Part shown: positions 7,105 through 38,928 of the stretch, in pieces
Layout of the letters: each line of letters opens with the position of its first letter
Numbering within the stretch: position 1 is the first letter of the stretch
Assembly (NCBI GenBank): GCA_002746535.1
Contig: NVWA01000008.1
Span: 63,935-127,934 of the forward strand
Direction of reading: 5' to 3'
From: Planctomycetota bacterium
Lineage (GTDB): Bacteria > Planctomycetota > GCA-2746535
DNA: 64,000 bases
Notes under the pieces: generated by a model
The model's database searches: none
What the model was told of the DNA's origin: nothing
The model's input: only the letters and a program-made list of their open reading frames with translations
Position numbers and translations under genes: made by a program

Positions 7105-9408
7105 TTATTCTTTCAATTGAAAATAGTGGGTTCTAGTTGATGCTGAAGGTGTTACTCTGTTGATATAACCTTCTTCGACTAATAATTTCAAATCGGTTGT
7201 GATTGTACCCGGTGCAACATTTAATACTTTAATTATTTCTCCTCTAGTTAATGTTTTTACTTCTTTAAACATAGCTCTTATTTTTTCTAATCGTCTTAGA
7301 GGAGTTTTTTCATTTGTGATTATATTTTCAATCAATGACTTGAATGAATCATTTGATGGTTTTGATTGAATTGTACTATTTAATTGGGTCGTATTTTGGG
7401 TATTTTCTGAAATGACATGTTTAGCTTTTTGATCAATTGGTTTTTTAATTTCTTTTTTCTTGTTCAATTGTAGATCAATTGTATCGTAAAAAAGTTTTTC
7501 TGAGTGGTATAGTCTCAATTTATCCATTTCATTTTTTAATTGTCTGACATTGCCAGGCCATGAATAACCCATCATTTCTTTTTGTAATTCTTTTGATAAT
7601 TTCGGTTGTTCTTTATCAGTTCTTTCTCGTTTTAAGAATAATTCTGCTAAAAGAATAATATCTTTGTTTCGTTCTTTAAGTGTAGGAATTTGAATTTCTA
7701 ATCGATTTAATCGATAATATAAATCTTCTCTAAATTTATTTTGATTAACAAGTTCTTTTAAATTTTTATTGGTTGCTGTAATGATTCTGCATTTAATCTT
7801 CTTTGGTTTGGTACTGCCGATAGGTTTTACTTCATTGGATTCCAATATTCTTAATAAAGAAACTTGGACGTGTTCTGAAATATCTCCGATTTCATCTAAA
7901 AACACAGTTCCGTTTTTAGCCGCTTCAAAAATGCCTTTATGATCTTGTGTTGCACCTGTGTATGAGCCTTTTAAATGGCCAAATAATTCTGAGTGCAATA
8001 ATGATTCTGCTATTGCGGCACAATTGATGACTAGAAAAGGATGATCAGATCGATCAGAGATATTATGCAATCTATGCGCAACTTCTTCTTTACCTACACC
8101 AGTTTCGCCATAAATCAAAATTGATGTGTCCGCATTGGCGTATTTATTAATGATATTTTTTAATTGAATCATGGGTTTTGATTGTCCAATGATATTTGTA
8201 GGCAATTCCGTCTTGTGGTTTTTTAAAATCTGAGGAAATTCAAATGGTTTTGGTTTGCTTTTAATATTTTGTTTAAGTAATTGAATGATTGTTCTCTTTG
8301 GTAGTTCACTTGAAAGATCAAGTTCAAAGTATAATCTATTTAAAGCATTGTAATAAAGGCAATATTCATAACATTTTTTAAAAAGTTTTTCGGCTTTAGT
8401 TTTGTTGCCTTTTAGTAATTCAAATCTAGCATCAAAAAAAACATTTAAGTAATGAATATAACCAGAATTTTTTATTTCATTTAATAATTTAGAGGCAGCG
8501 CTGATGTTTTTGTTTGATAATTCTGCCCTAATTAATGTGTAGAAAATAGTATTGTTTACTTTAAGTATGGCTTTATGTTCAGTTGCAAATTTCTTGGCCC
8601 ATGCTAATCCGTTAACGGGATCCTTCTCTTTTAAATAACAATTTATTATATACCATCTAGTGGAAGCATCTATATTTTTAGAATTGATATTGTAATCTTG
8701 ATGATCAATATCCATAGAAAAAGTTACAATTTTATAGTCTCTTATCAGGTTTTTATAATCCAATATTTTTTTAATACTCTCATCTTCAAAATCAAGAGAT
8801 TTGAACAACACTGAATGATTTTTAAATTGACATGTTTGTATATAATTGCGGAATATAATTTCTGTCGTTAAAAGTTTTGACCTTTTATTTTTAAATTTGA
8901 AATTAAACTTTTCAAAGTCTTTGAGGCGACCTTCATCACTTAAATAGGTCATGTACACTAATAAGGTTAACTCATAATGAGCTGAAGTTTTCGGTATTTT
9001 CTCTATGGCTTCAAGTAAATATTTTTCTTTTTGTTTTTCATCACCTTTTACACTTTCAAGGATACTTAAAAGGTTAATCAGTTTTACCTGCAATTCGGGT
9101 ATCTTTATTTTGTATTCCTTAATTCTATTGGTCAGCATATTTGCTTCGTGATAGTTTCCGCTACGAATGGCAGCTCCACTCCAAATTAGTAGAAACAATA
9201 TGAATAGATCTTTGTCATATTTCTGATTATTATTTAATATTGATTGGGCTAGTTCTCTTTCTTTAGACTCATTATAATTTGACCCGCTATAAGTAGACAA
9301 CCCGATCATAGCTTTTGAAATTGGCCATTCTGCTTCCTTAGAATTTAGAACTATACTTGAAAACCTCCCATCAGAGGTAAGCCATTTTTTTACTAAAGTT
9401 ATTGTCAT
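7105..9408 (-). CDS. Sigma-54-type AAA+ activator with helical-repeat N-terminus and winged-helix C-terminus (copy 2)
   Basis: 767 residues. The first 400 residues are helical and TPR-like with no receiver, GAF or PAS domain visible. A sigma-54-interaction AAA+ domain follows: Walker A GETGVGKE (434-441), GSYTGA in place of GAFTGA (481-486), Walker B TVFLDEIGD, and the YSWPGNVRQLKNEM segment. After a low-complexity linker, residues 703-767 form a predicted winged helix (LTRGEIIKVL, APGTITTDL) instead of the usual Fis-type helix. The Tyr variant of GAFTGA is known in working activators. It lies 22 bases after its paralog and is likely co-transcribed. Signal and targets are unknown. Confidence 0.85.
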   Translation of the reverse strand: MTITLVKKWLTSDGRFSSIVLNSKEAEWPISKAMIGLSTYSGSNYNESKERELAQSILNNNQKYDKDLFILFLLIWSGAAIRSGNYHEANMLTNRIKEYKIKIPELQVKLINLLSILESVKGDEKQKEKYLLEAIEKIPKTSAHYELTLLVYMTYLSDEGRLKDFEKFNFKFKNKRSKLLTTEIIFRNYIQTCQFKNHSVLFKSLDFEDESIKKILDYKNLIRDYKIVTFSMDIDHQDYNINSKNIDASTRWYIINCYLKEKDPVNGLAWAKKFATEHKAILKVNNTIFYTLIRAELSNKNISAASKLLNEIKNSGYIHYLNVFFDARFELLKGNKTKAEKLFKKCYEYCLYYNALNRLYFELDLSSELPKRTIIQLLKQNIKSKPKPFEFPQILKNHKTELPTNIIGQSKPMIQLKNIINKYANADTSILIYGETGVGKEEVAHRLHNISDRSDHPFLVINCAAIAESLLHSELFGHLKGSYTGATQDHKGIFEAAKNGTVFLDEIGDISEHVQVSLLRILESNEVKPIGSTKPKKIKCRIITATNKNLKELVNQNKFREDLYYRLNRLEIQIPTLKERNKDIILLAELFLKRERTDKEQPKLSKELQKEMMGYSWPGNVRQLKNEMDKLRLYHSEKLFYDTIDLQLNKKKEIKKPIDQKAKHVISENTQNTTQLNSTIQSKPSNDSFKSLIENIITNEKTPLRRLEKIRAMFKEVKTLTRGEIIKVLNVAPGTITTDLKLLVEEGYINRVTPSASTRTHYFQLKE

Positions 9409-9430
9409 TTTTTGTTAACTACAATTCTGT

Positions 9431-11719
9431 TTATTTGCAAAATTCAAAATAATGGGTTCTTGTTGATGCGCTTGGTTTAATTTTTTTAATGTAACCTTCT
9501 TTCTCTAATGATTTAAGATAGGATGTTGCGGTTCCAGGTGCTATTTGAAGTGCTTTAATGATTTCACCTCTCGTTAAAGTTCCTGCTGTTTTAAATAAAT
9601 CTAATATTTTTTCTTTTCTTCTTAAGGCTGTTTTCCCGTTTTGAATTAATTCATTTATCTGTGAATTGGGAGGCGCTATATTAGTATGTTTGAATTGTGG
9701 ATTCAAATTTTGTGTTATTTCTTTAATGGTAAAATCTTCAGCCTCGTAATGCATTTTTTCAGAATTTAACAATCTCATTTTCTCCATTTCATTTTTTAGT
9801 TGTCTAACGTTTCCTGGCCATTCATATTTTTTTATTAAATCTTGTAATTCATTACTCATTGATGGTGATTGACCGTCAGTTCTGTTTTGACTTAAAAAAT
9901 AATTAGACAAAGGGATGATATCGTCCACTCTTTCTCTTAAAGGTGGAATATGAATATTTAATTGATTCAAACGGTAATATAAATCTTCTCTAAATTGACC
10001 ATTAGAAGTTAAACTTTCTAAATCTTTATTGGTTGCAGCTAATATTTTGCAGTTAATTTTTTTTGTTTCTGTACTTCCAATTGGTCTGATACATTTATTT
10101 TCTAAAACTCTTAATAGAGCAATTTGAACTTGAGGTGTAATTTCTCCAATTTCATCTAAAAAAACAGTTCCATCTTTAGCAGCTTCAAAGACTCCTGGCT
10201 GATATTTATGTGCTCCTGTAAAAGCACCAGCAACATGTCCAAATAATTCTGATTGTAATAATGATTCTGAAATTGATCCGCAATTAATGGGTATGTAAGG
10301 CTTAGTTTTTCTAGGAGAATTTTCATGAATCGATCTAGCAATTACCTCTTTACCTACTCCTGTTTCACCATTTAATAAAATAATACCTTTGTCTTTTGAA
10401 AACTTTGAAATCTTTGTTTTGATTAATTGAATAGCATTTGATATTCCAATGATCACTCCCTTTTCAGTGTTGGAGTCGTTATCATCGATGGTTTCTAAAG
10501 TGTTTGATTTTTTTTTTGATTTTTTTTCTATTGGCGTTAGAAATAGGGTTGTGTCTTTTGTTGATAACTCACAGGAAAGTTCTAGCTCAAAAGCTAAACG
10601 TTCAAATGCTTCATAATGAGTACATGAGTTTTGCAATTTCTTGATGAGATCTAATGCTAGAATGTTTTTGTCTTCTAAAAGGGCTATTCTCGCATAAAAA
10701 AAAACATCCAGAAAATGAGGGTAACCTTTTTTTATTTTATTTAATAATAAACCCTTTGCTGCTTCACAGTTTTTATTTGAAATCTCTGCTCTAATAAGTG
10801 TGAATGATTGGAGATTTCTGTTGCCCATTCCGATAGGATGTTCTTGTGTATACCTTCTTGCCCATTTTAGTCCTTCCTTTTGTTTCCCTAAATATAGATA
10901 GCCTGTTGTGGTCATCCATTTGTCATAGTATTCTAAAGATTGATCGTCAAGGGTATTTTGTAAAAAGTTATTTTTTGCTGGTTGATCCATAAAATTTAAA
11001 TAGATTTCCTCAACGTCAAATTGATTATCAGGACTCTGTAATAATTTTAGTTTATTTGGATTTGATTTTATTTTTTCAAAGAGTTTTTTAGCATAAGAGA
11101 TTTGACAAAGTTGTATGGCGTTGCTTAGGTTTGCAAAATCTTCCTCTGAGTTGATTTCTGAATTTTCCTTTACCTTATTTTTTTTTGTTATTAATTTTTC
11201 TAGATCTTTCAATCTCCCTTGTGTTTGTAATGCACCTTTAGCACCTGTGATAAGTTTTATTTTGTGTGCTTCATTTACGTTTGATATTTTTAATGCATTT
11301 TGAAGATAAGTGATTCGTAAAGTTTTATTTCCTGATACCCCATAGTGATATCCTTTTGTCGCTAAAATGGTCGCAATGATTTCTGGTAATAACTCCTTTT
11401 CATTTATTTCGTCCAATTTATTTAGAATCATTTTTGATTCATCTAGATTTTGACCTTTTGCAGCCATGATTGACCATACAATTAAAAATAACGCATATAA
11501 ATTAATTTCTATCCGTTCGTTTTTTTCAACGACTTGTTGTGCTAATTTTCTACCTTCGCTTTCATTATAGTTTTCATTTTCGGCGTTTAGCATGCTTATG
11601 ACTGATTGGCCGATTAGCGTATTTCTTTCCTTGGAATTGGTCATGATTTTTGACAGTCCAATAAAGGGGTCTTTTCTCCATTGCTCAACAGATTCAGGTA
11701 GAGTGGTGTTTTGTTTCAT
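9431..11719 (-). CDS. Sigma-54-type AAA+ activator with helical-repeat N-terminus and winged-helix C-terminus (copy 1)
   Basis: 762 residues, paralogous along its whole length to the next gene on this strand. The helical, TPR-like N-terminal half is followed by Walker A GETGVGKE (451-458), a canonical GAFTGA loop (498-503), Walker B TVFLDEIGE and EWPGNVRQLKNEM. The C-terminal 65 residues (LTRGEIIKALQIAPGTATSYLKSL) form a predicted winged helix, and ASTRTHYF is shared with the paralog. The canonical GAFTGA implies contact with sigma-54; DNA binding through a winged helix is atypical for this class. It is preceded by a good promoter (11750-11777) and is divergent from the methyltransferase/acyltransferase genes, which it may control (inference). 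Confidence 0.87.
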   Translation of the reverse strand: MKQNTTLPESVEQWRKDPFIGLSKIMTNSKERNTLIGQSVISMLNAENENYNESEGRKLAQQVVEKNERIEINLYALFLIVWSIMAAKGQNLDESKMILNKLDEINEKELLPEIIATILATKGYHYGVSGNKTLRITYLQNALKISNVNEAHKIKLITGAKGALQTQGRLKDLEKLITKKNKVKENSEINSEEDFANLSNAIQLCQISYAKKLFEKIKSNPNKLKLLQSPDNQFDVEEIYLNFMDQPAKNNFLQNTLDDQSLEYYDKWMTTTGYLYLGKQKEGLKWARRYTQEHPIGMGNRNLQSFTLIRAEISNKNCEAAKGLLLNKIKKGYPHFLDVFFYARIALLEDKNILALDLIKKLQNSCTHYEAFERLAFELELSCELSTKDTTLFLTPIEKKSKKKSNTLETIDDNDSNTEKGVIIGISNAIQLIKTKISKFSKDKGIILLNGETGVGKEVIARSIHENSPRKTKPYIPINCGSISESLLQSELFGHVAGAFTGAHKYQPGVFEAAKDGTVFLDEIGEITPQVQIALLRVLENKCIRPIGSTETKKINCKILAATNKDLESLTSNGQFREDLYYRLNQLNIHIPPLRERVDDIIPLSNYFLSQNRTDGQSPSMSNELQDLIKKYEWPGNVRQLKNEMEKMRLLNSEKMHYEAEDFTIKEITQNLNPQFKHTNIAPPNSQINELIQNGKTALRRKEKILDLFKTAGTLTRGEIIKALQIAPGTATSYLKSLEKEGYIKKIKPSASTRTHYFEFCK

Positions 11720-11749: not shown

Positions 11750-11777
11750 ATTATAGTCGTATTTATTATATACTCAA
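11750..11777 (-). promoter_or_regulatory. Promoter of the AAA+ regulator operon
   Basis: On the minus strand, TTGAGT (-35), a 16-bp spacer and a perfect TATAAT (-10) lie about 30 bases before the ATG at 11719. This is a sigma-70-type match by eye. Confidence 0.55.
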
Positions 11778-11946
11778 TATGAATTGAATATGAGTTCAAA
11801 ATGAAATCAAATATTTATCTTTGTTAAGATTTTTTTGTATGACGATTTCTTAAGTCTTTGGAATGAATGGGTTTAGCAAAATTCTCATGGTTGGCATAAA
11901 AGTTTCTATAGTAATCATATAAAATAACTTAATGAAAGGTAATCCA

Positions 11947-12684
11947 ATGCTTAAATCAATCTCTTTTCCAATGAAACAAAGATCAGCTTTATCACAAACA
12001 ATTGCATCTTTATTTCGAGTATTGCCACGTAAATTAGAAAGTCACCCTGATCACGTGGGAGTTGAAGCAGAAGAATATAATCGAATGGTAAAAGTTCATT
12101 ATTGGTTATTGAATAGACCATTTATTCAAATGGTTTCTAAATTAGAAATTTGCAATAAAAAAGTATTGGATATTGGTACTGGACCAGGTTGGAATTCTAT
12201 TGGAATAGCAAAGAGACATCCTGATTATAAAATTACCGCGATTGATTTATCACCTGACATGATAGCGATTGCAAAAAAGAATGCTGAAGATGAAGGAGTT
12301 GCTGATCAAATTAGTTTTATTGTAGGCGATGCTACGAAATTACCTTTTGAAGATAATGAATTTGGCTTGGTGATATCTCATTTTATGTTGCATCACATTG
12401 ATCATCCTGAAGATATGTTGGTTGAGGCAAATCGTGTTAAACACCAAGAAGGCCAAGTATTCATTAAAGATTTATTGAGACAGCCAAACTGGAAGAAAGG
12501 TTTTCTTCTTTGGTTCTCAAAATATTTTTTACGTTACAACGAAGAGCAATTGAGAGAGTATGATGAGTCAATGGGTGCTGGCTTGGTGATGAATGAAGTT
12601 CCTGGAAAATTAAAAAAAGCAAATATCGAAGGTGGTCGAGTTAAAAACTTTCGTGGACTTGACTTTATTTTACATTTAAAATAA
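11947..12684 (+). CDS. Class I SAM-dependent methyltransferase (UbiE-like)
   Basis: About 245 residues with a Rossmann methyltransferase core. Motif I is VLDIGTGPGWNSIG, the acidic ribose-binding loop is ITAIDLSPDM, the motif-II-like stretch is IVGDATKLPFEDNEF and the post-motif is FMLHHIDHPEDML. The C-terminal third (LLWFSKYFLRYNEEQL) probably caps the substrate site. The ATG at 11947 is preferred over that at 11932 because AAAGG sits 7-8 bases upstream. Only 14 bases separate it from the FeeM-like acyltransferase, so the two probably form one unit and could act on the same small lipid (inference). The substrate cannot be read from sequence. Confidence 0.8.
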   Translation: MLKSISFPMKQRSALSQTIASLFRVLPRKLESHPDHVGVEAEEYNRMVKVHYWLLNRPFIQMVSKLEICNKKVLDIGTGPGWNSIGIAKRHPDYKITAIDLSPDMIAIAKKNAEDEGVADQISFIVGDATKLPFEDNEFGLVISHFMLHHIDHPEDMLVEANRVKHQEGQVFIKDLLRQPNWKKGFLLWFSKYFLRYNEEQLREYDESMGAGLVMNEVPGKLKKANIEGGRVKNFRGLDFILHLK

Positions 12685-12698
12685 TCGAGGTAGAGAAA

Positions 12699-13604
12699 AT
12701 GAGATCTGAAACTAGACTATCGCAAGTATTAAAAAAATTCGATTATTCAGATAAAAGAAAAAATAGTGATCAATTAGAATTTGGTGAAAACAATGAGTTT
12801 ACAGTTGAAATAGCGAATGATATTGAAACTAGAATTCAAGCTTACAGATTATTATATAAGACGTATGTTGAAAAAGAGTTTGCAAAACCACATTCATCAA
12901 AAATGTGGTATTCAATTTTTGATGCTCATCCAGACACCGCAACCATTGTAGTAAAAGAAGGTGATAAAGTTCGTGGTGCATTGACAATTGTCATAGATTC
13001 TTCAATGGGTTTACCTGCAGATAGTCTTTATCTTGAAGAATTGAACTTAATGCGAATTAAGGGCGACTTAGTGTCTGAAATTATTTCTCTTGGAATTGAT
13101 AGTGATGCAAGGGGTGGAACTGAAATATTAGAAAAGTTATTTAATTTTTCTTATTTATATGCTAAAGGAATATTTGGTGCATCAAAATTTATTATTACTG
13201 TAAATCCAAGACATGCTGTATTCTATGAAAAAAAATTATTGTTTCAAAGAGTAGGCTTTGTCAAAGATTATGATCGAGTTGGTGGTATGCCTGCAATATG
13301 TTTGGAATTAGATTTAATTATGTTAACTACCTTACTGGAAACTCCTGATCGAATAAGTGAGTTGAAGAGAACGATTTATTCTAATTTTATTAACGTAAAA
13401 GAATCGAAAAAAGTTCTTCATGCAATAGGAAGTTGTATTGTAAAAATGAAACATACTGAATTGCAATATTTCTTTGTCAATCAACGAAGCCTTTTTAAGC
13501 TATCACCAAAGTGGATGTTGGATGCATTGAAAAGTTATTATTGTCATTTAAATTTTGATCAATTGTTTGTTGATGATCAATTGGAAATAATGGCTATTTG
13601 CTAA
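12699..13604 (+). CDS. GNAT-fold acyltransferase resembling N-acyl amino acid synthase FeeM
   Basis: 301 residues. The middle (about 45-210) has the FeeM/exosortase-associated acyltransferase pattern: an early IQAYRLLYKTYV segment, an acidic strand before LSLGIDSDARG, and the hallmark TVNPRHAVFYEKKLLFQRVG close to the end of the domain. FeeM enzymes take acyl groups from acyl-ACP and attach them to amino acids. The last 90 residues are helical and specific to this protein. GAGG precedes the ATG (12699) by about 8 bases. Co-transcription with the methyltransferase suggests a small modified N-acyl amino acid product, possibly a signal or a lipid; this is inference. Confidence 0.65.
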   Translation: MRSETRLSQVLKKFDYSDKRKNSDQLEFGENNEFTVEIANDIETRIQAYRLLYKTYVEKEFAKPHSSKMWYSIFDAHPDTATIVVKEGDKVRGALTIVIDSSMGLPADSLYLEELNLMRIKGDLVSEIISLGIDSDARGGTEILEKLFNFSYLYAKGIFGASKFIITVNPRHAVFYEKKLLFQRVGFVKDYDRVGGMPAICLELDLIMLTTLLETPDRISELKRTIYSNFINVKESKKVLHAIGSCIVKMKHTELQYFFVNQRSLFKLSPKWMLDALKSYYCHLNFDQLFVDDQLEIMAIC

Positions 13605-13819: not shown

Positions 13820-14740
13820 ATGTATAAAGATACATTAGGCTTTAGGCAAGGGGAAGTGTACGAAGATTCTAGAATCAAATTAGGTGTTAATTTATGGTTG
13901 GAGAGAGTCTTTGGTTGGTATGGTGAAGAAAATCCTCCAGCAGACATTCAAATTATTGAAGGTCAATTGGCATTGACAAGTGAATCTGCTGATTATATAT
14001 ACTCTGACTTTACACCTTTAGAATTAAAATATGTAAAAGGCACTCGACCTTTTTTGGAAGAAGTTTTAAGTCAGATAATTAATGATGACATGAGCGATCA
14101 TGAAAAGTTTTTAGCGATTATGCGTAGGTGTCGTGATAACCGTGACTATAAATCTGATAGTGTCGTGTTTGATGGTGGTAGTGAAGAAGAGTTAATAAAA
14201 CGCGGTGCAATTATGTGTAATGAGATATCTAGAGTGTTTACAGCCTTGAGTCAAATGGCTGGTTTTCCTGCTAGGGTGATAGGTGTACATATTTCCGGCC
14301 ATATGATGAGTGAGATTTATATCAACGGTAAATGGGCATTTGTAGACAGCATGAAGGGGATGTACTGTTTTTTAGATAATGGTGACAGAGCTTCTTTCTG
14401 GGATTTAATGCAAGATCCTGGAATTGTCGATCGTCAAGAGGCTTCTGTTTGGGAAGATTGCCGTCCGATTGGTGGAATGGGAACAATCGATCAAAAGAAA
14501 GCTCAGATGCAAGCTCGACTGCGTGATTGTTATTTATATCCTAAGGAAGCGAGTTGTATTGGCAATTACTATTGTTGGGAGAGCGACAAGTTCAATTATA
14601 AATGGACGATTGCTGCCGCTGATAATGATCGTTTAGAACAAGCAAGAATTGCTGAAGCAAGGAACCGAATTGATTTAGGTTATCCGCCACATTATAGTGT
14701 TCCGATTAGTTGGTCTGAGGATAGGCCTCGGATGAAGTAA
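13820..14740 (+). CDS. Transglutaminase-like cysteine protein
   Basis: 306 residues without a signal peptide. The papain-like transglutaminase triad is visible: Cys133 in AIMCNEISR, His161 in SGHMMSE and Asp176 in AFVDSMKG, with FTALSQMAGFPARVIG between Cys and His as in the family. The chemistry is either amide hydrolysis or isopeptide formation; bacterial members of this shape are mostly uncharacterised. Strong Shine-Dalgarno GAGGAG 8 bases before ATG. Stands alone between a 215-base gap and a perfect palindrome. Confidence 0.75.
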   Translation: MYKDTLGFRQGEVYEDSRIKLGVNLWLERVFGWYGEENPPADIQIIEGQLALTSESADYIYSDFTPLELKYVKGTRPFLEEVLSQIINDDMSDHEKFLAIMRRCRDNRDYKSDSVVFDGGSEEELIKRGAIMCNEISRVFTALSQMAGFPARVIGVHISGHMMSEIYINGKWAFVDSMKGMYCFLDNGDRASFWDLMQDPGIVDRQEASVWEDCRPIGGMGTIDQKKAQMQARLRDCYLYPKEASCIGNYYCWESDKFNYKWTIAAADNDRLEQARIAEARNRIDLGYPPHYSVPISWSEDRPRMK

Positions 14741-34476: not shown

Positions 34477-36140
34477 TTCGGGATAATCAAACAGATAAAT
34501 TGGAAGCAGAACTTTCTTCATTGGGAGTCTCTATTCGAAAGCAACACCTGTATGAAGGAGCCATAAAACTGATTGGCTTTGTACTAATTGGGTTAGTTAT
34601 GTTTTATCTGGTAGATTACTTAGCAAAAATTCCTTATATCCTTCGTCTGATAATTTTAATCAGTGGTTTGAGTTATGCCTTTTACTGGTATGCATTTAAT
34701 TTTATTAAAAAATATAATAAATTATTATCAGCACATGATGTCAGCTTAATTGTCGAAAATTCTAATCCAGATTTACAAAGTAGAGTCGTTTCAACTTTAG
34801 AGTTCCAAGCACTTGATAAATTAAATCCAGGAACTTCTGCAAATTTGGTTGAGGGTATGCTTAGCCAAACCTTTAATTTAATTAAAAATTTAAATTGGAA
34901 TAGTGTAGTAGAAAAGAAGTGGGTCAAGGGTGCCATGAAAGTCCTTATTACTGGACTAATTATTTTCATTGTTGCGGGTGCTATTTCTCAGGAAGCTTTT
35001 TCAGTTTTTTTCCAAAGATTACTATTTCCTCATCCAAAATATCCGACCAACACTCAAATTGTTGACGTTCAATTTGAAAATGTAAACAAAGGCACTAAGG
35101 TTCGAATTCCTGAAGGGGAAAAAGTTGTTTTGATCGTTAAAGCTGAAGGTGTGCTTCCAAGAATGGGTAAGGTTGAAATGTCTACTGAAAGTGGTTCATC
35201 AGCAGATTATGATTTAATTTATGATGAAAAATTAAAATTATACAAAAGTGTTTTAGATGCCATCGTGGAGCCTATTGAGGTCACCATTTATTTAGGAGAT
35301 GATCGTTGGGGTCCTATTGATGTGGAAGTTATACCACGACCAAAAATCAAAAGTATTCGGTTTAAAATTATACCACCCAAGTATACAGGCTTCAAAAATT
35401 CAGTGGAAAATGGTGGGAACTTCCAAGCTTTTGAAGGTTCTAAGGTTACCTATGAGATAGTTTCTGACAAGCCTCTGAAATCGTTAGAATTTTTTGATTA
35501 TTCTGATACCAATAAAAAAGTACTTTTGACAAAAGTATCTAGCACCAAATGGAATGGTGAGTTAAATATTTCCAAGAACTTCAAATATTCTTTTGTTCTT
35601 GTGGATAATGAATCATTGAACAGTATCGATATCCCTATTTATAGCATTAGTGTTTTGCATGATAAAAAGCCTAGTATTAAAATAAAAGAGCCTTATTTAA
35701 ATGTCGAAGTAGCCCCCGTTACTGTACTTCCAGTTCATTTGATTATAAGAGATGACATTAGTATTCAAAATGTGAATATTTATGCCCAATTAATGGGTAG
35801 AGATGAGCAAGGAGAGGAAATTGATTTAGCTGATCCAACCCTTATTTATGAAAAAAAATCTTTAAATAAGAAGTTAGAAGAGTATAAAGAAGCTACATGG
35901 AATATGGCGCCGTTAAAGGCCGTTCCGGGCAATCAAATAAAGATCTGGATTGAAGTAACTGATAATAAAGTTCCAGTGCCATTGAAGACGATTTCACCTG
36001 AAATAATTGTATCCATTATTTCTGAAGAAGCCTATAGGGCTAAATTAAATGAAGGTTGGCAACGTGTAGACAAGAGGGTAATTGATACTACAAAAGATTT
36101 GAAAGTAACAGAAGATAACATAAATAAATTAAATAAATAA
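34473..36140 (+). CDS. Membrane protein resembling the N-terminal half of DUF4175
   Basis: 555 residues. Two adjacent membrane helices near residues 30-72, a cytoplasmic helical segment with SLIVENSNPDLQSRVVSTLEF, a third membrane helix near 152-170, then beta-sandwich domains (residues 195-510) expected outside the membrane. The arrangement resembles DUF4175 proteins, in which a long charged coiled region follows. Here that region seems to be a separate gene, the Glu-rich protein next door. Function unknown; co-expressed with the vWA proteins (4-base overlap). Confidence 0.7.
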   Translation: MIRDNQTDKLEAELSSLGVSIRKQHLYEGAIKLIGFVLIGLVMFYLVDYLAKIPYILRLIILISGLSYAFYWYAFNFIKKYNKLLSAHDVSLIVENSNPDLQSRVVSTLEFQALDKLNPGTSANLVEGMLSQTFNLIKNLNWNSVVEKKWVKGAMKVLITGLIIFIVAGAISQEAFSVFFQRLLFPHPKYPTNTQIVDVQFENVNKGTKVRIPEGEKVVLIVKAEGVLPRMGKVEMSTESGSSADYDLIYDEKLKLYKSVLDAIVEPIEVTIYLGDDRWGPIDVEVIPRPKIKSIRFKIIPPKYTGFKNSVENGGNFQAFEGSKVTYEIVSDKPLKSLEFFDYSDTNKKVLLTKVSSTKWNGELNISKNFKYSFVLVDNESLNSIDIPIYSISVLHDKKPSIKIKEPYLNVEVAPVTVLPVHLIIRDDISIQNVNIYAQLMGRDEQGEEIDLADPTLIYEKKSLNKKLEEYKEATWNMAPLKAVPGNQIKIWIEVTDNKVPVPLKTISPEIIVSIISEEAYRAKLNEGWQRVDKRVIDTTKDLKVTEDNINKLNK

Positions 36141-36151
36141 AAGGAAATCAA

Positions 36152-37909
36152 ATGTTAAAACACGGCACATTAATTCTCTTTGTAATTTTTTCAACAAATT
36201 TAGTATGGGCTGATGATGCTGCTGATAAGAAAGCATTAGAAATCAGGAAAACTCAATCAGAAGTAGCTAGGAAAAAAAGAACAGCAGAGTTTATTGGCAA
36301 GGAAATCAAAACTGTTCACCGTGACATGAAATATTCTAATGTAATTAGCAGTAGAATGGTAAAAAGCGCTCAAGAAGCTCATGAACTAATGACAACTGTA
36401 TCTGAAGAAAATTTGAAAAACACAAAAATATCTTTACTTGAAGCAGAGCAAAAAAGTGGATCTAAAAGAGATAAAGCTTTAGGAGATGCTGAGAATGAAG
36501 TGGGTAAAGCACTTAAGAATCTTATCAAAATACATAAGTTGGTGGCGAAAAATGCCAATAAAGCAGAATTTAAAAAGAGGATAAGTAATTTAGCGAAAGC
36601 GGTTAAAGCTCAAAATGAAAAGTTAAAAGATGAAGTGAAAAAAGAATTATCAGGTGAGAAGACTCCGCAAGAGAAGCTTAATGAGTTAGCAAAAGAAGAG
36701 AAAGCGATTCAAGAAGAAGCAAAAAAAATAAATGAAGACCTTGAGAATGCTATTAAAGAAGCTAAAGCAGAAGAGAAGGCCGAAGAAGCAAATGCCGAAG
36801 AGAAATCAGACGCAGAAAAATCGGATGAAGAAAAATCAGAAGAAGCAAATGCCGAAGAGAACTCAGATGAAGAAAAATCAGAAGAAGCAAATGCTGAAGA
36901 GAACTCAGATGAAGAAAAATCAGATGAAGAGAAGTCTGAAGAAGCAAATGCAGAAGAAAATGATGAAAATAGTGATGAAGAGAATAGTGATTCTGATGAA
37001 AAAAGTGATTCAGAAGAAAAGGAAGAGCTTGCTGAAGATTTGGAAGGCGCCGAAGATAAGGCCGAGGAAGCCACAGAAGCTATCGAAGAAGGTGATCTTG
37101 ATAAAGCTTTAGAAGAGAATTCTGAATTGCTAGCTCAAATGGAAAAAGCTGCCGATGAATTAAATTCTCAAGAACAAGATAGTGATTCAGATAGTGATCA
37201 GGAAAAATCAGAAAGTGAACAGGCTCTTGAAGAATTAAGCGAAGCCGTTTCTGAGCAAAATGAAAATATTCAAGAGGCAGAAGAAAATAATTCCGAAGGA
37301 GAGCTGACTGAAAGTGAAGAGTTTGATGAAGTCCTTTCAAAGCAAAGGGAATTAAGTAAAGCTTTAAAAAGTGCTAAAGAAAAAGTGGAAGGTAATGAGG
37401 AAGCAGAAGCTGCTTTAGATGAAGCTCAAGCTGCTCTTGATGAAGCTCAAGAAAGTCTTGAAAATGGTGAATTAGATGAAGCCACTGAAAAAAACGAAAG
37501 TGCTGAAGAGTCGATTCAAAAAGCTCAAGAAGCAGTTAAGAAAGAAAAACAAAAAGGTAAGGGTGAAGGTGAAAAAGAACCGCAAGAACCTAGCAAGCCT
37601 GGTGATGGTGAAGAAGAACCGGAAGAAAATAGTGAAGATGGTCCACCAGGACCCCCTGAAGTTGCAAAGATGACGCCATTTGAAGAATCAAATAAAGCTG
37701 CAAAAGAAGGAGATCGGAAAGAAGCGGTACATTTAAGAGAAAATATGATTCAGTTAGGCCACATGCCAAATAGTAAAACTGTTTGGACTGACAAGTCTGG
37801 TGAAAAGCATAATACTGTTCGGTTGCAAAGTTTACAAAAGAAAGCTCCAAAAGAATATTCGGATTTAACTAGGCAATATTTTGAAGCACTTGCAACCTTA
37901 ACGCAGTAA
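36152..37909 (+). CDS. Exported glutamate-rich low-complexity protein
   Basis: 585 residues. A signal peptide ends near Ala20 (FSTNLVWADD). Residues 25-200 are helical and Lys/Glu-rich. About 200-300 consist of 14-residue-type repeats (EEANAEENSDEEKS), and further acidic coiled regions run to about 480. The last 100 residues are Pro-rich, then a conserved-looking end (MTPFEESNKAAKEGDRKEA...KAPKEYSDLTRQYFEAL). The protein is strongly acidic and probably disordered or coiled-coil. The conserved tail suggests a structured docking end, while the repeats are free to vary in length. Likely the periplasmic partner of the vWA proteins; function unknown. Confidence 0.8.
   Translation: MLKHGTLILFVIFSTNLVWADDAADKKALEIRKTQSEVARKKRTAEFIGKEIKTVHRDMKYSNVISSRMVKSAQEAHELMTTVSEENLKNTKISLLEAEQKSGSKRDKALGDAENEVGKALKNLIKIHKLVAKNANKAEFKKRISNLAKAVKAQNEKLKDEVKKELSGEKTPQEKLNELAKEEKAIQEEAKKINEDLENAIKEAKAEEKAEEANAEEKSDAEKSDEEKSEEANAEENSDEEKSEEANAEENSDEEKSDEEKSEEANAEENDENSDEENSDSDEKSDSEEKEELAEDLEGAEDKAEEATEAIEEGDLDKALEENSELLAQMEKAADELNSQEQDSDSDSDQEKSESEQALEELSEAVSEQNENIQEAEENNSEGELTESEEFDEVLSKQRELSKALKSAKEKVEGNEEAEAALDEAQAALDEAQESLENGELDEATEKNESAEESIQKAQEAVKKEKQKGKGEGEKEPQEPSKPGDGEEEPEENSEDGPPGPPEVAKMTPFEESNKAAKEGDRKEAVHLRENMIQLGHMPNSKTVWTDKSGEKHNTVRLQSLQKKAPKEYSDLTRQYFEALATLTQ
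36782..36966 (+). repeat. In-frame tandem repeat coding for EEANAEENSDEEKS units
   Basis: Four imperfect copies begin GAAGAAGCAAATGC, spaced 42-57 bp, all multiples of three. Two include an extra 15-base SDEEK-type block. Copy-number change would keep the frame. Confidence 0.85.
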
Positions 37910-37917
37910 AAGAAATT

Positions 37918-38928
37918 ATGAAAACATTAATTTTTATTTCTATTTTTATTCTGTCTTTTTGTGTATTTTCACAAGCTCATTCCAAAGATGAAGTAATCGA
38001 TATTTCCCCGAAAGTAGATAAGGCTATTGACAAGGCGTTGGCATACTTAGCTTCAACTCAGAGATCAGATGGTTCTTGGTCTGACGGAGGTTATGGTAAA
38101 AATGTTGGTATTATTTCATTGTGCTTGATGGCTTTTATGTCAAAAGGTAATTTGCCTGGTGAAGGTAAATATGGTCATGTTGTTGCTAAAGGTTTGGATT
38201 GGCTCATTAAACAGGCTAAACCAAGTGGGCTCGTTCAAAATACCGAACGAAAAGCAGGTGGTCCAGCAATGTATGGCCACGGTTTAGCAGCTTTAGCACT
38301 TAGTGAAGTTTGGGGTCAAACAAGAAGAAAAGATGTCGGTGCAGTTCTTAGAAAAGCTATCGACTTAATTGTTAAAGTTCAAGGTAAAGGTGGTACGTGG
38401 GGATATTATAGTGTTCCAAAAGATGGAGATACCTCGATAACAGTAATGCAAATATTTGCATTAAAATCTGCTCATGAAGCGGGTATCTATGTTCCAAAAG
38501 TAACCATCGAGAAAGCCTTAAAAGCCATAAAAAAGAGGTTTGATAAGAAGCATAAAATGTACGGTTATAGTGGACCTAAGAATACACCAACTAGTGGGCA
38601 TATTGGTTCTCATTCTGCTGGGACATGTATCATGCAAATTTGTCGAGAAAAAGATCCTAAGTACACGATTGAACCTATGAAAGTTTGTATTTCAATTATG
38701 AAAAAACGTCCAAAGCATAATGCTTATTTTATGTATTATGGTTCTGTTTGTACCTATTATGCAGGTGCTAAATATTACAATGAGTGGCGTAAATATATGG
38801 AACCAGTTATGTTGAAAAGGCAAAGAAGTAGTGGGCAAATAGGAAATACTCTTGGAACGGCCTGGGGCGTCTTAGCCTTATCACTGCCTTATCGGTATAT
38901 ACCTGTTTACCAACATGAGGAAAAGTAA
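37918..38928 (+). CDS. Exported prenyltransferase/squalene-cyclase-repeat-like protein
   Basis: 336 residues with a signal peptide (FISIFILSFCVFSQA). The mature part has alpha/alpha-barrel repeats of the terpene-cyclase type (LAYLASTQRSDGSW near residue 40, IDLIVKVQGKGGTWGYY near 150). No DXDD cyclase acid motif is evident, so terpene cyclisation is unlikely; such secreted barrels are common in PVC bacteria and uncharacterised. HIGSHSAGTC and conserved cysteines could form a ligand site. It starts 8 bases after the Glu-rich gene and 3 bases before the NPCBM gene. Confidence 0.75.
   Translation: MKTLIFISIFILSFCVFSQAHSKDEVIDISPKVDKAIDKALAYLASTQRSDGSWSDGGYGKNVGIISLCLMAFMSKGNLPGEGKYGHVVAKGLDWLIKQAKPSGLVQNTERKAGGPAMYGHGLAALALSEVWGQTRRKDVGAVLRKAIDLIVKVQGKGGTWGYYSVPKDGDTSITVMQIFALKSAHEAGIYVPKVTIEKALKAIKKRFDKKHKMYGYSGPKNTPTSGHIGSHSAGTCIMQICREKDPKYTIEPMKVCISIMKKRPKHNAYFMYYGSVCTYYAGAKYYNEWRKYMEPVMLKRQRSSGQIGNTLGTAWGVLALSLPYRYIPVYQHEEK

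Follow-up and report, generated by a model that had tools for sequence, protein, structure and literature searches.

Activators of sigma-54 RNA polymerase are described as carrying a DNA-binding helix-turn-helix in a three- or four-helix bundle, with pairs of these domains bound to upstream sites (PMC7175178). For a winged helix at the C-terminus of such an activator we found one printed precedent, the DVU0151 orthologs, as they are described in PMC4641369. The synthase FeeM is reported to resemble the AHL (LuxI) synthases structurally (PMC9654057), and signalling by N-acyl amino acids in planctomycetes has only been speculated on in the published account (PMC7293339); in the main text of a paper on Stieleria (PMC12479983), the words "regulator", "sigma" and "quorum" are absent. 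Among open-licence PubMed Central papers we found none that names "N-acyl amino acid synthase" and "sigma-54" together, none that combines enhancer binding protein, sigma-54, tetratricopeptide and winged helix, and, at the level of titles and abstract openings, no report of a FeeM synthase paired with a sigma-54 regulator; the same literature yielded no dedicated receptor for the N-acyl amino acid products of FeeM-type synthases.

The locus considered here lies in a window of 64,000 nucleotides, the whole stretch of DNA that was analysed, from a Planctomycetota bacterium (assembly GCA_002746535.1, contig NVWA01000008.1), and its features are listed in Table 1. Two intact genes on the same strand, separated by 22 bases, encode regulators A and B, which are 40% identical over their full alignment. 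The tandem arrangement, and an AAA+ core with a GAFTGA or GSYTGA loop, had been put forward in a preliminary description of this DNA, and both stand: in addition to the loop motifs, each protein matches PF00158 (E 1.8e-65 and 2.9e-62) and AAA_lid_14 in Pfam, and hits to NCBIfam equivalogs such as NorR, NifA and PrdR are confined to the central part and stay far under their cut-offs. The 22 and 23 Pfam families listed for the two proteins at E <= 1 include no receiver and no Fis-type HTH_8, in keeping with the absence of both domains reported earlier. The C-terminus of regulator B matches winged-helix models over cut-off (HTH_24 1.9e-7, MarR 2.1e-5), and that of regulator A, 54% identical in the winged-helix region, matches such models below cut-off only (Fe_dep_repress 0.006, MarR 0.012). 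Judged from these sequence features, A and B are sigma-54 AAA+ activators in which a winged helix has replaced the Fis domain, with a predicted ATPase and polymerase-remodelling function. Elsewhere in the window, two tandem, similar proteins (861-1655 and 1888-2676) are phytanoyl-CoA dioxygenase-like by eye, and the interval 36001-38000 is purine-biased (AT skew 0.34, GC skew 0.29), with the highest AT skew of the 2-kb bins.

Table 1. Features of the regulator locus and its divergent operon (window coordinates).
Feature	Position	Strand	Basis and remarks
Regulator A	7105..9408	-	767 aa; TPR-like superhelix, AAA+ core (Walker A GETGVGK, loop GSYTGA), C-terminal winged helix
Regulator B	9431..11719	-	762 aa; layout as in regulator A; loop GAFTGA
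Regulator B winged helix	9446..9619	-	about residues 701-758
Regulator B AAA+ domain and lid	9755..10453	-	residues 423-655; Pfam; best structural matches (Foldseek) are the AAA+ domains of FleQ, FlrC and NtrC1
Regulator B sensor	10538..11719	-	residues 1-394, helices, TPR-like superhelix; AlphaFold2, fold comparison, sequence profile
Four 11-bp direct repeats, candidate enhancer	11771..11814		lag-11 periodicity, controls
-24/-12 (sigma-54) promoter-like site TGGCATAAAAGTTTCTAT	11892..11909	+	reads into divergent operon; de novo motif, scores, strict genome-wide pattern
Methyltransferase, divergent operon gene 1	11932..12684	+	Methyltransf_25 E 4.1e-24
FeeM-type N-acyl amino acid synthase (predicted)	12699..13604	+	PF21926 E 1.8e-38; PDB 2g0b FeeM E 1.4e-9
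Transglutaminase-like protein	13820..14740	+	Transglut_core E 1.6e-10; operon membership possible but uncertain (215-base gap)

The N-terminal part of both proteins had been described as a helical-repeat region of about 400 residues, and AlphaFold2 models it as all-helical, as claimed: regulator B reaches a pLDDT of 82.1 at full length, and its N-terminus alone (pLDDT 85.4, pTM 0.84) forms a superhelix. A profile of 28 N-termini from the paralog family described below matches PDB chains of designed PPR (3.9e-7) and kinesin light chain TPR (3.9e-4) proteins, and the nearest folds are TPR proteins, namely APC/C subunits, Rap, NprR, MalT, AimR and PlcR, at Z scores of 12-17 that are possibly generic for helical repeats. 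TPR_2, TPR_14 and PknG_TPR were each matched in one of the 28 N-termini, and no Pfam family matches the N-terminus of regulator B at E <= 0.01. We rejected assignment of the sensor to a clearly known fold, given the nearly empty Pfam result and a Foldseek search with the sensor model that returned zero matches at E <= 0.001.

The same architecture recurs across the source genome (6.76 Mb in 106 contigs, 88.9% complete). PF00158 has 55 matches genome-wide, 43 of them strong (E <= 1.8e-43), and 29 have the architecture of regulators A and B; the N-terminal profile also yields 29 matches. The remaining 14 strong matches have Fis-like C-termini, by eye, in the 10 inspected. A GAFTGA-type loop is present in 26 of the 29 paralogs and GAYTSA in three. 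The GAYTSA regulators (L046, L054 and L058) nonetheless face -24/-12-like sites and FeeM operons, and constitute a natural test of the loop. All but one of the paralogs are intact (28/29); the broken one (C43, L034:7135-9435) has an internal stop after the loop motif and keeps a divergent FeeM gene and a promoter-like site.

A profile of the 28 C-termini matches winged-helix proteins of the PDB, among them AdcR, ScaR and Crp, at E values down to 1.5e-4; Fis proteins are absent from the 47 PDB matches listed. Pfam recognizes HTH_11 in 16 of these C-termini, DeoR in 14, MarR and HTH_5 in 10 each, and HTH_24 in 9; winged-helix models are on top, and HTH_8 is absent among the best 25 of the 29 Pfam families matched. 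Together with the Pfam models of the window proteins, these scans uphold the winged helix of the preliminary description. That description had also proposed a check for rpoN, of which the genome has one match (Sigma54_DBD E 1.3e-57), and had named two results that would count against it, a Fis-type C-terminus in a profile search and a genome without sigma-54; neither was encountered. Its view that exchange of the DNA-binding domain is rare in this class is not supported as stated, given the printed precedent in the DVU0151 orthologs (PMC4641369).

The 29 paralogs occupy 27 loci, and tandem pairs occur at two of these (the window and L051). The emphasis formerly placed on the tandem pair as the key feature was thus not borne out, and the pair as an essential unit was rejected because 25 of the 27 loci have a single regulator. 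In a tree of AAA+ domains, which omits one member of the family (L047) with a Walker motif outside the search pattern, A and B are unpaired, although the forks concerned are weak. The family stands apart from the 14 other activators except for L045, L174 and L176, which are placed beside Fis-type rows (support 94, not starred); 20 rows from the source genome make up one supported set and 11 rows from other genomes another. The architecture may have arisen once or more than once. The 16S gene of the source genome contains an exact site for the planctomycete probe PLA886 and a site with one mismatch to the planctomycete probe PLA46, which makes membership of Planctomycetota probable. The 58 other genomes drawn as relatives have only the phylum in common with the source genome, and a profile search of other genomes' contigs for named relatives gave three loci, where in each case the alignment is confined to the AAA+ core.

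The regions upstream of the regulators carry a conserved promoter-like element. De novo motif search by expectation-maximisation (60 random starts, both strands) in 27 divergent regions, which leave out the two distal tandem regulators, gave an identical result in the six best starts: TGGCAT-N5-TTGCT, the -24/-12 form recognized by sigma-54, present in 26/27 regions and missing at L041, which is also FeeM-less. The 26 sites lie 60-204 bp from the start of the regulator, and every one of them points into the divergent operon. Fixed patterns exceed their controls by a wide margin: TGGCAY-N5-WT occurs in 16/27 regions (none on the opposite strand, a mean of 0.5 in shuffles, and 9/212 among other upstream regions), the textbook form TGGC-N7-TTGC in 8/27 (opposite strand 0, shuffles 0.01, other upstream regions 2/212), and GG-N10-GC alone in 17/27 (opposite strand 5, shuffles 3.8, other upstream regions 43/212). 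The -12 box is frequently TTTC- or TTCC-like instead of TTGC. Genome-wide, the strict pattern has 8 matches vs. 0 for its reversed form; five fall in regulator divergent regions, and the other three lie upstream of a dnaK-like gene, inside a gene, and 355 bases before an orphan FeeM gene within another ORF. A -24/-12-like site of 18.3 bits lies about 76 bases ahead of a dnaK-like gene, named by eye (L208:5640-7683), in agreement with a survey in which predicted sigma-54 promoters in Planctomycetota were enriched at chaperone genes (PMC12316311).

Sigma-54 control of the divergent synthase operon is well supported by these sequence patterns, and it is very probable that the regulator activates that operon through sigma-54. 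It would be surprising if the proteins were instead not sigma-54 activators of these operons, with the motif and the AAA+ core being relics or otherwise used. The variant loops (GSYTGA in regulator A, GAYTSA in three paralogs) and the imperfect -12 box would fit such a view, but rpoN is present, the great majority of the family has a GAFTGA-type loop, and the 26 sites all point one way; moreover, the validated activators covered by PMC3162934 include some with S at loop position 2 and some with Y at position 3, although S-2 and Y-3 combined, or S at position 5, are not met in that part of the source.

Across 26 regions, the sequence upstream of the -24 box recurs with a spacing of precisely 11 bp (z 7.0), and no other lag from 6 to 40 exceeds z 2.2. 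The lag-11 test was prompted by the same 26 regions (26/27, L041 being left out) and is not an independent prediction. Because real DNA varies more than shuffled sequence does, a subsample control was used; 125 other intergenic stretches, taken as controls, themselves reach z 3.8 (lag 6) and 3.6 (lag 17), and 2000 random sets of 26 drawn from them gave a maximum mean of 14.58 vs. 16.73 observed. The overall best direct-repeat score is near that of shuffles (8.58 vs. 8.35), the spacing alone being distinctive. Inverted repeats were rejected as the enhancer, with a mean best score of 6.52 observed vs. 6.59 shuffled in 27 regions. In the window, pairwise comparison of the four repeat units gives 5 to 8 identical bases out of 11, and the array ends 77 bases before the -24 box. 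These repeats are probably an enhancer bound by the regulator, and we read the spacing as winged helices aligned along one face of the DNA. The activator DNA-binding domain seems to have been exchanged together with the form of the enhancer, one-turn direct repeats in place of dyads.

The originally reported span (7105-11719) ends short of the divergent promoter and the synthase operon, which are the important part. FeeM is the only family that the window synthase matches at E <= 0.01 (132.3 bits vs. a cut-off of 27), so there is no LuxI-family match at that threshold. The genome has 34 FeeM genes, and one lies in the divergent operon at 21/27 regulator loci, the window included, where random placement of 34 genes would give about 0.01 per locus, a crude expectation in that the cassettes of regulator and synthase operon are duplicated. 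The preliminary description had suggested that the repeat part senses a peptide or protein, for which nothing positive was found; because an N-acyl amino acid synthase recurs in the divergent operon, an acyl-amino acid is the likelier ligand.

The tailoring genes that adjoin FeeM encode FAD oxidase, desaturase, ThiF and methyltransferase, and enzymes of similar kinds are discussed for the stieleriacines (PMC7293339). The regulators could be ordinary pathway-specific sigma-54 activators of acyl-amino-acid operons, for a surfactant, a membrane lipid or an antibiotic, and form no signalling loop, a less likely reading that deserves serious weight. The tailoring genes lend themselves to it through their resemblance (methyltransferase, ThiF, desaturase) to stieleriacine-type clusters as presented in PMC7293339, as do the 6/27 loci (L037, L040, L041, L043, L044 and L053) where the regulator faces an operon that lacks FeeM; all the domain, promoter and FeeM-neighbour facts fit it equally. 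The TPR domain would then read acyl-ACP, a precursor, stress or a peptide instead.

Twelve of the 34 FeeM genes have no such regulator alongside. Ten of these 12 have an ECF-type sigma factor only a few genes away (Pfam in six, the rest by eye), including L198, L199, L200, L203, L204, L205, L206, L210 and L039:7333-9377, and several of these sigma factors have a long C-terminal extension (470-530 aa); ECF-type sigma factors are perhaps a second mode of FeeM control. One regulator has a FeeM gene on either side, one divergent and one downstream (L209:1565-4056 with L049:8716-13338), and the downstream gene has its own -24/-12-like site (16.7 bits). A YgaP-like small transmembrane protein recurs next to FeeM (L042:5139-5474, PF11127; by eye in L046, L051, L199 and L203) and, by eye, is fused to it in L045 and L047; this protein is perhaps a membrane partner or exporter for FeeM.

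Synthase and sensor were compared in 20 pairs from the 21 loci of the source genome, without the disrupted regulator (L034) or the distal member of each tandem pair. FeeM distances correlate with those of the sensor (r 0.48, p 0.0002), the AAA+ domain (0.43) and the winged helix (0.43). The partial correlation with FeeM is 0.25 (p 0.006) for the sensor given the AAA+ domain, vs. 0.05 (p 0.31) and 0.12 (p 0.13) for the AAA+ domain and the winged helix given the sensor, and the signal is carried by the N-terminal half of the sensor (partial 0.28, p 0.002, vs. 0.15, p 0.08). With 11 non-redundant pairs, the sensor correlation is 0.36 (p 0.02) and the partial correlation 0.28 (p 0.052), which is borderline. 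These values are suggestive of co-divergence of synthase and sensor beyond the AAA+ domain, as would fit a sensor that reads the product, and, modest as they are, speak against activators devoid of a signalling loop. Duplication of whole cassettes alone can produce the correlation between FeeM and sensor, and such duplication or protein contact could contribute to it.

Protein contact would be the basis of a protein-partner switch. Here the partner of the TPR domain would be FeeM itself, or the product of another gene in the operon, and the regulator would sense how much synthase is present rather than its small product. TPR superhelices commonly bind proteins or peptides, the nearest folds of the sensor are proteins of this kind, and the co-divergence fits as well. 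However, nothing positive was found for such a switch, and six regulators lack the FeeM neighbour; we therefore consider it improbable.

The pairing was also sought in 392 genomes of the phylum, with at most 4 sensor-profile candidates scored per genome. The sensor profile matched in 9/392 genomes (weakly in G011) and FeeM in 54/392; both are present in 5 of the 9 sensor genomes (one-sided Fisher p 0.003). In one of these (G323, about 71% GC), FeeM is divergent to all 9 regulators that have upstream DNA on their contig, among which L171:14845 is without loop motif and winged helix and L173 is truncated on the 3' side; the count leaves out another two regulators, whose upstream DNA is interrupted by contig ends. 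In the same genome, the target strand scores >= 12 in 8/9 regions and the opposite strand <= 11.5, a comparison between strands only, and lag 11 is weak (z 2.1; lags 7, 10 and 22 give 2.1, 2.3 and 2.7). G001 has full-length regulators and no FeeM, and the FeeM search found none in G145, G261 and G011. G075 has 23 FeeM genes and one regulator, in two pieces, that does not adjoin them; in G039 and G287, weak FeeM matches are on contigs other than those of the regulators.

We propose that the cassettes are autoinduction loops, LuxI/LuxR-like and assembled from unrelated parts. In this scheme, the FeeM synthase would make an N-acyl amino acid, and the TPR-like superhelix of the neighbouring regulator would bind that product. 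Winged helices lined up on the 11-bp direct repeats would hold the AAA+ core near the promoter; ligand binding would release the core, which would then remodel the sigma-54 polymerase at the -24/-12 promoter, and promoter opening would lead to expression of the synthase operon, more synthase and more signal. In the window, A and B have one promoter region in common and might form mixed rings. The tailoring enzymes could make the products distinct, and the channels thereby private, and the product would be released and shared among cells. The scheme draws on the divergent FeeM genes in two genomes, the uniformly oriented -24/-12-like sites, the separate site of the downstream FeeM gene beside one regulator, the lag-11 repeats, the co-divergence and the likeness of FeeM to AHL synthases. 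Against it count the six loci without FeeM, one of them also without a -24/-12 site, the 12 FeeM genes with no adjoining regulator, the genomes that have regulators but no FeeM or have the two apart, the imperfect -12 box, the borderline partial correlation, and the weak lag-11 signal in G323. Autoinduction is the most economical, though unproven, reading; in outline, we regard the whole chain as somewhat favoured, and hold its central step, that the sensor reads the synthase product, to be evenly poised. More tentatively, and with the balance somewhat against it, the cassettes may represent a new class of acyl signalling, in which FeeM is coupled to a one-component sigma-54 receptor with TPR-like sensor, winged helix and 11-bp direct-repeat enhancer, with some 20 private parallel autoinduction channels in the source genome and a separate expansion in another lineage. 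For each of some 20 products, the cassettes provide candidates for receptor, promoter, binding array and synthase, and with these in hand the question of signalling becomes testable.

Compared with the Fis-type sigma-54 enhancer-binding proteins (NtrC, NorR, NifA and DmpR), the regulators have the AAA+ core, lid and GAFTGA-type loop in common; unlike the NtrC type, they have a TPR-like sensor instead of a receiver, GAF or PAS domain, a winged helix instead of a Fis helix-turn-helix, and a putative enhancer of direct repeats instead of dyads. The TPR-like superhelix may be a feature in common with RRNPP and MalT-type receptors: the sensor aligns with Rap at Z 14.6 (rmsd 6.9, 308 aligned), NprR at 14.5 (7.0, 316), MalT at 13.2 (6.8, 308), AimR at 13.1 (5.1, 299) and PlcR at 12.1 (4.6, 193), and with APC/C subunits at 16.7, above all of these, so that such values may be generic for helical repeats. 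To our knowledge, RRNPP and MalT-type receptors have no sigma-54 AAA+ core. DVU0151 and its orthologs in Desulfovibrionales, compared here by description only, are likewise one-component sigma-54 activators with a long unclassified N-terminal region and a predicted winged helix, and are likewise divergent from a sigma-54 promoter, but their target is a transport operon, their loop is GAFSEA, and no link to FeeM is stated in that description (PMC4641369). The stieleriacine/FeeM clusters have in common a planctomycete N-acyl amino acid synthase with methyltransferase, dehydratase and desaturase genes, whereas in the published account a regulator is merely a putative mention and signalling is speculation (PMC7293339). 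The cassettes described here may amount to numerous independent chemical signalling loops, each reinforcing itself, for which we know of no earlier description. As in LuxI/LuxR systems, an acyl-signal synthase would be divergent from or adjacent to a receptor-activator that promotes its own signal; in contrast to those systems, the synthase belongs to the FeeM family and not to LuxI, and the predicted receptor is a sigma-54 AAA+ activator and not LuxR.
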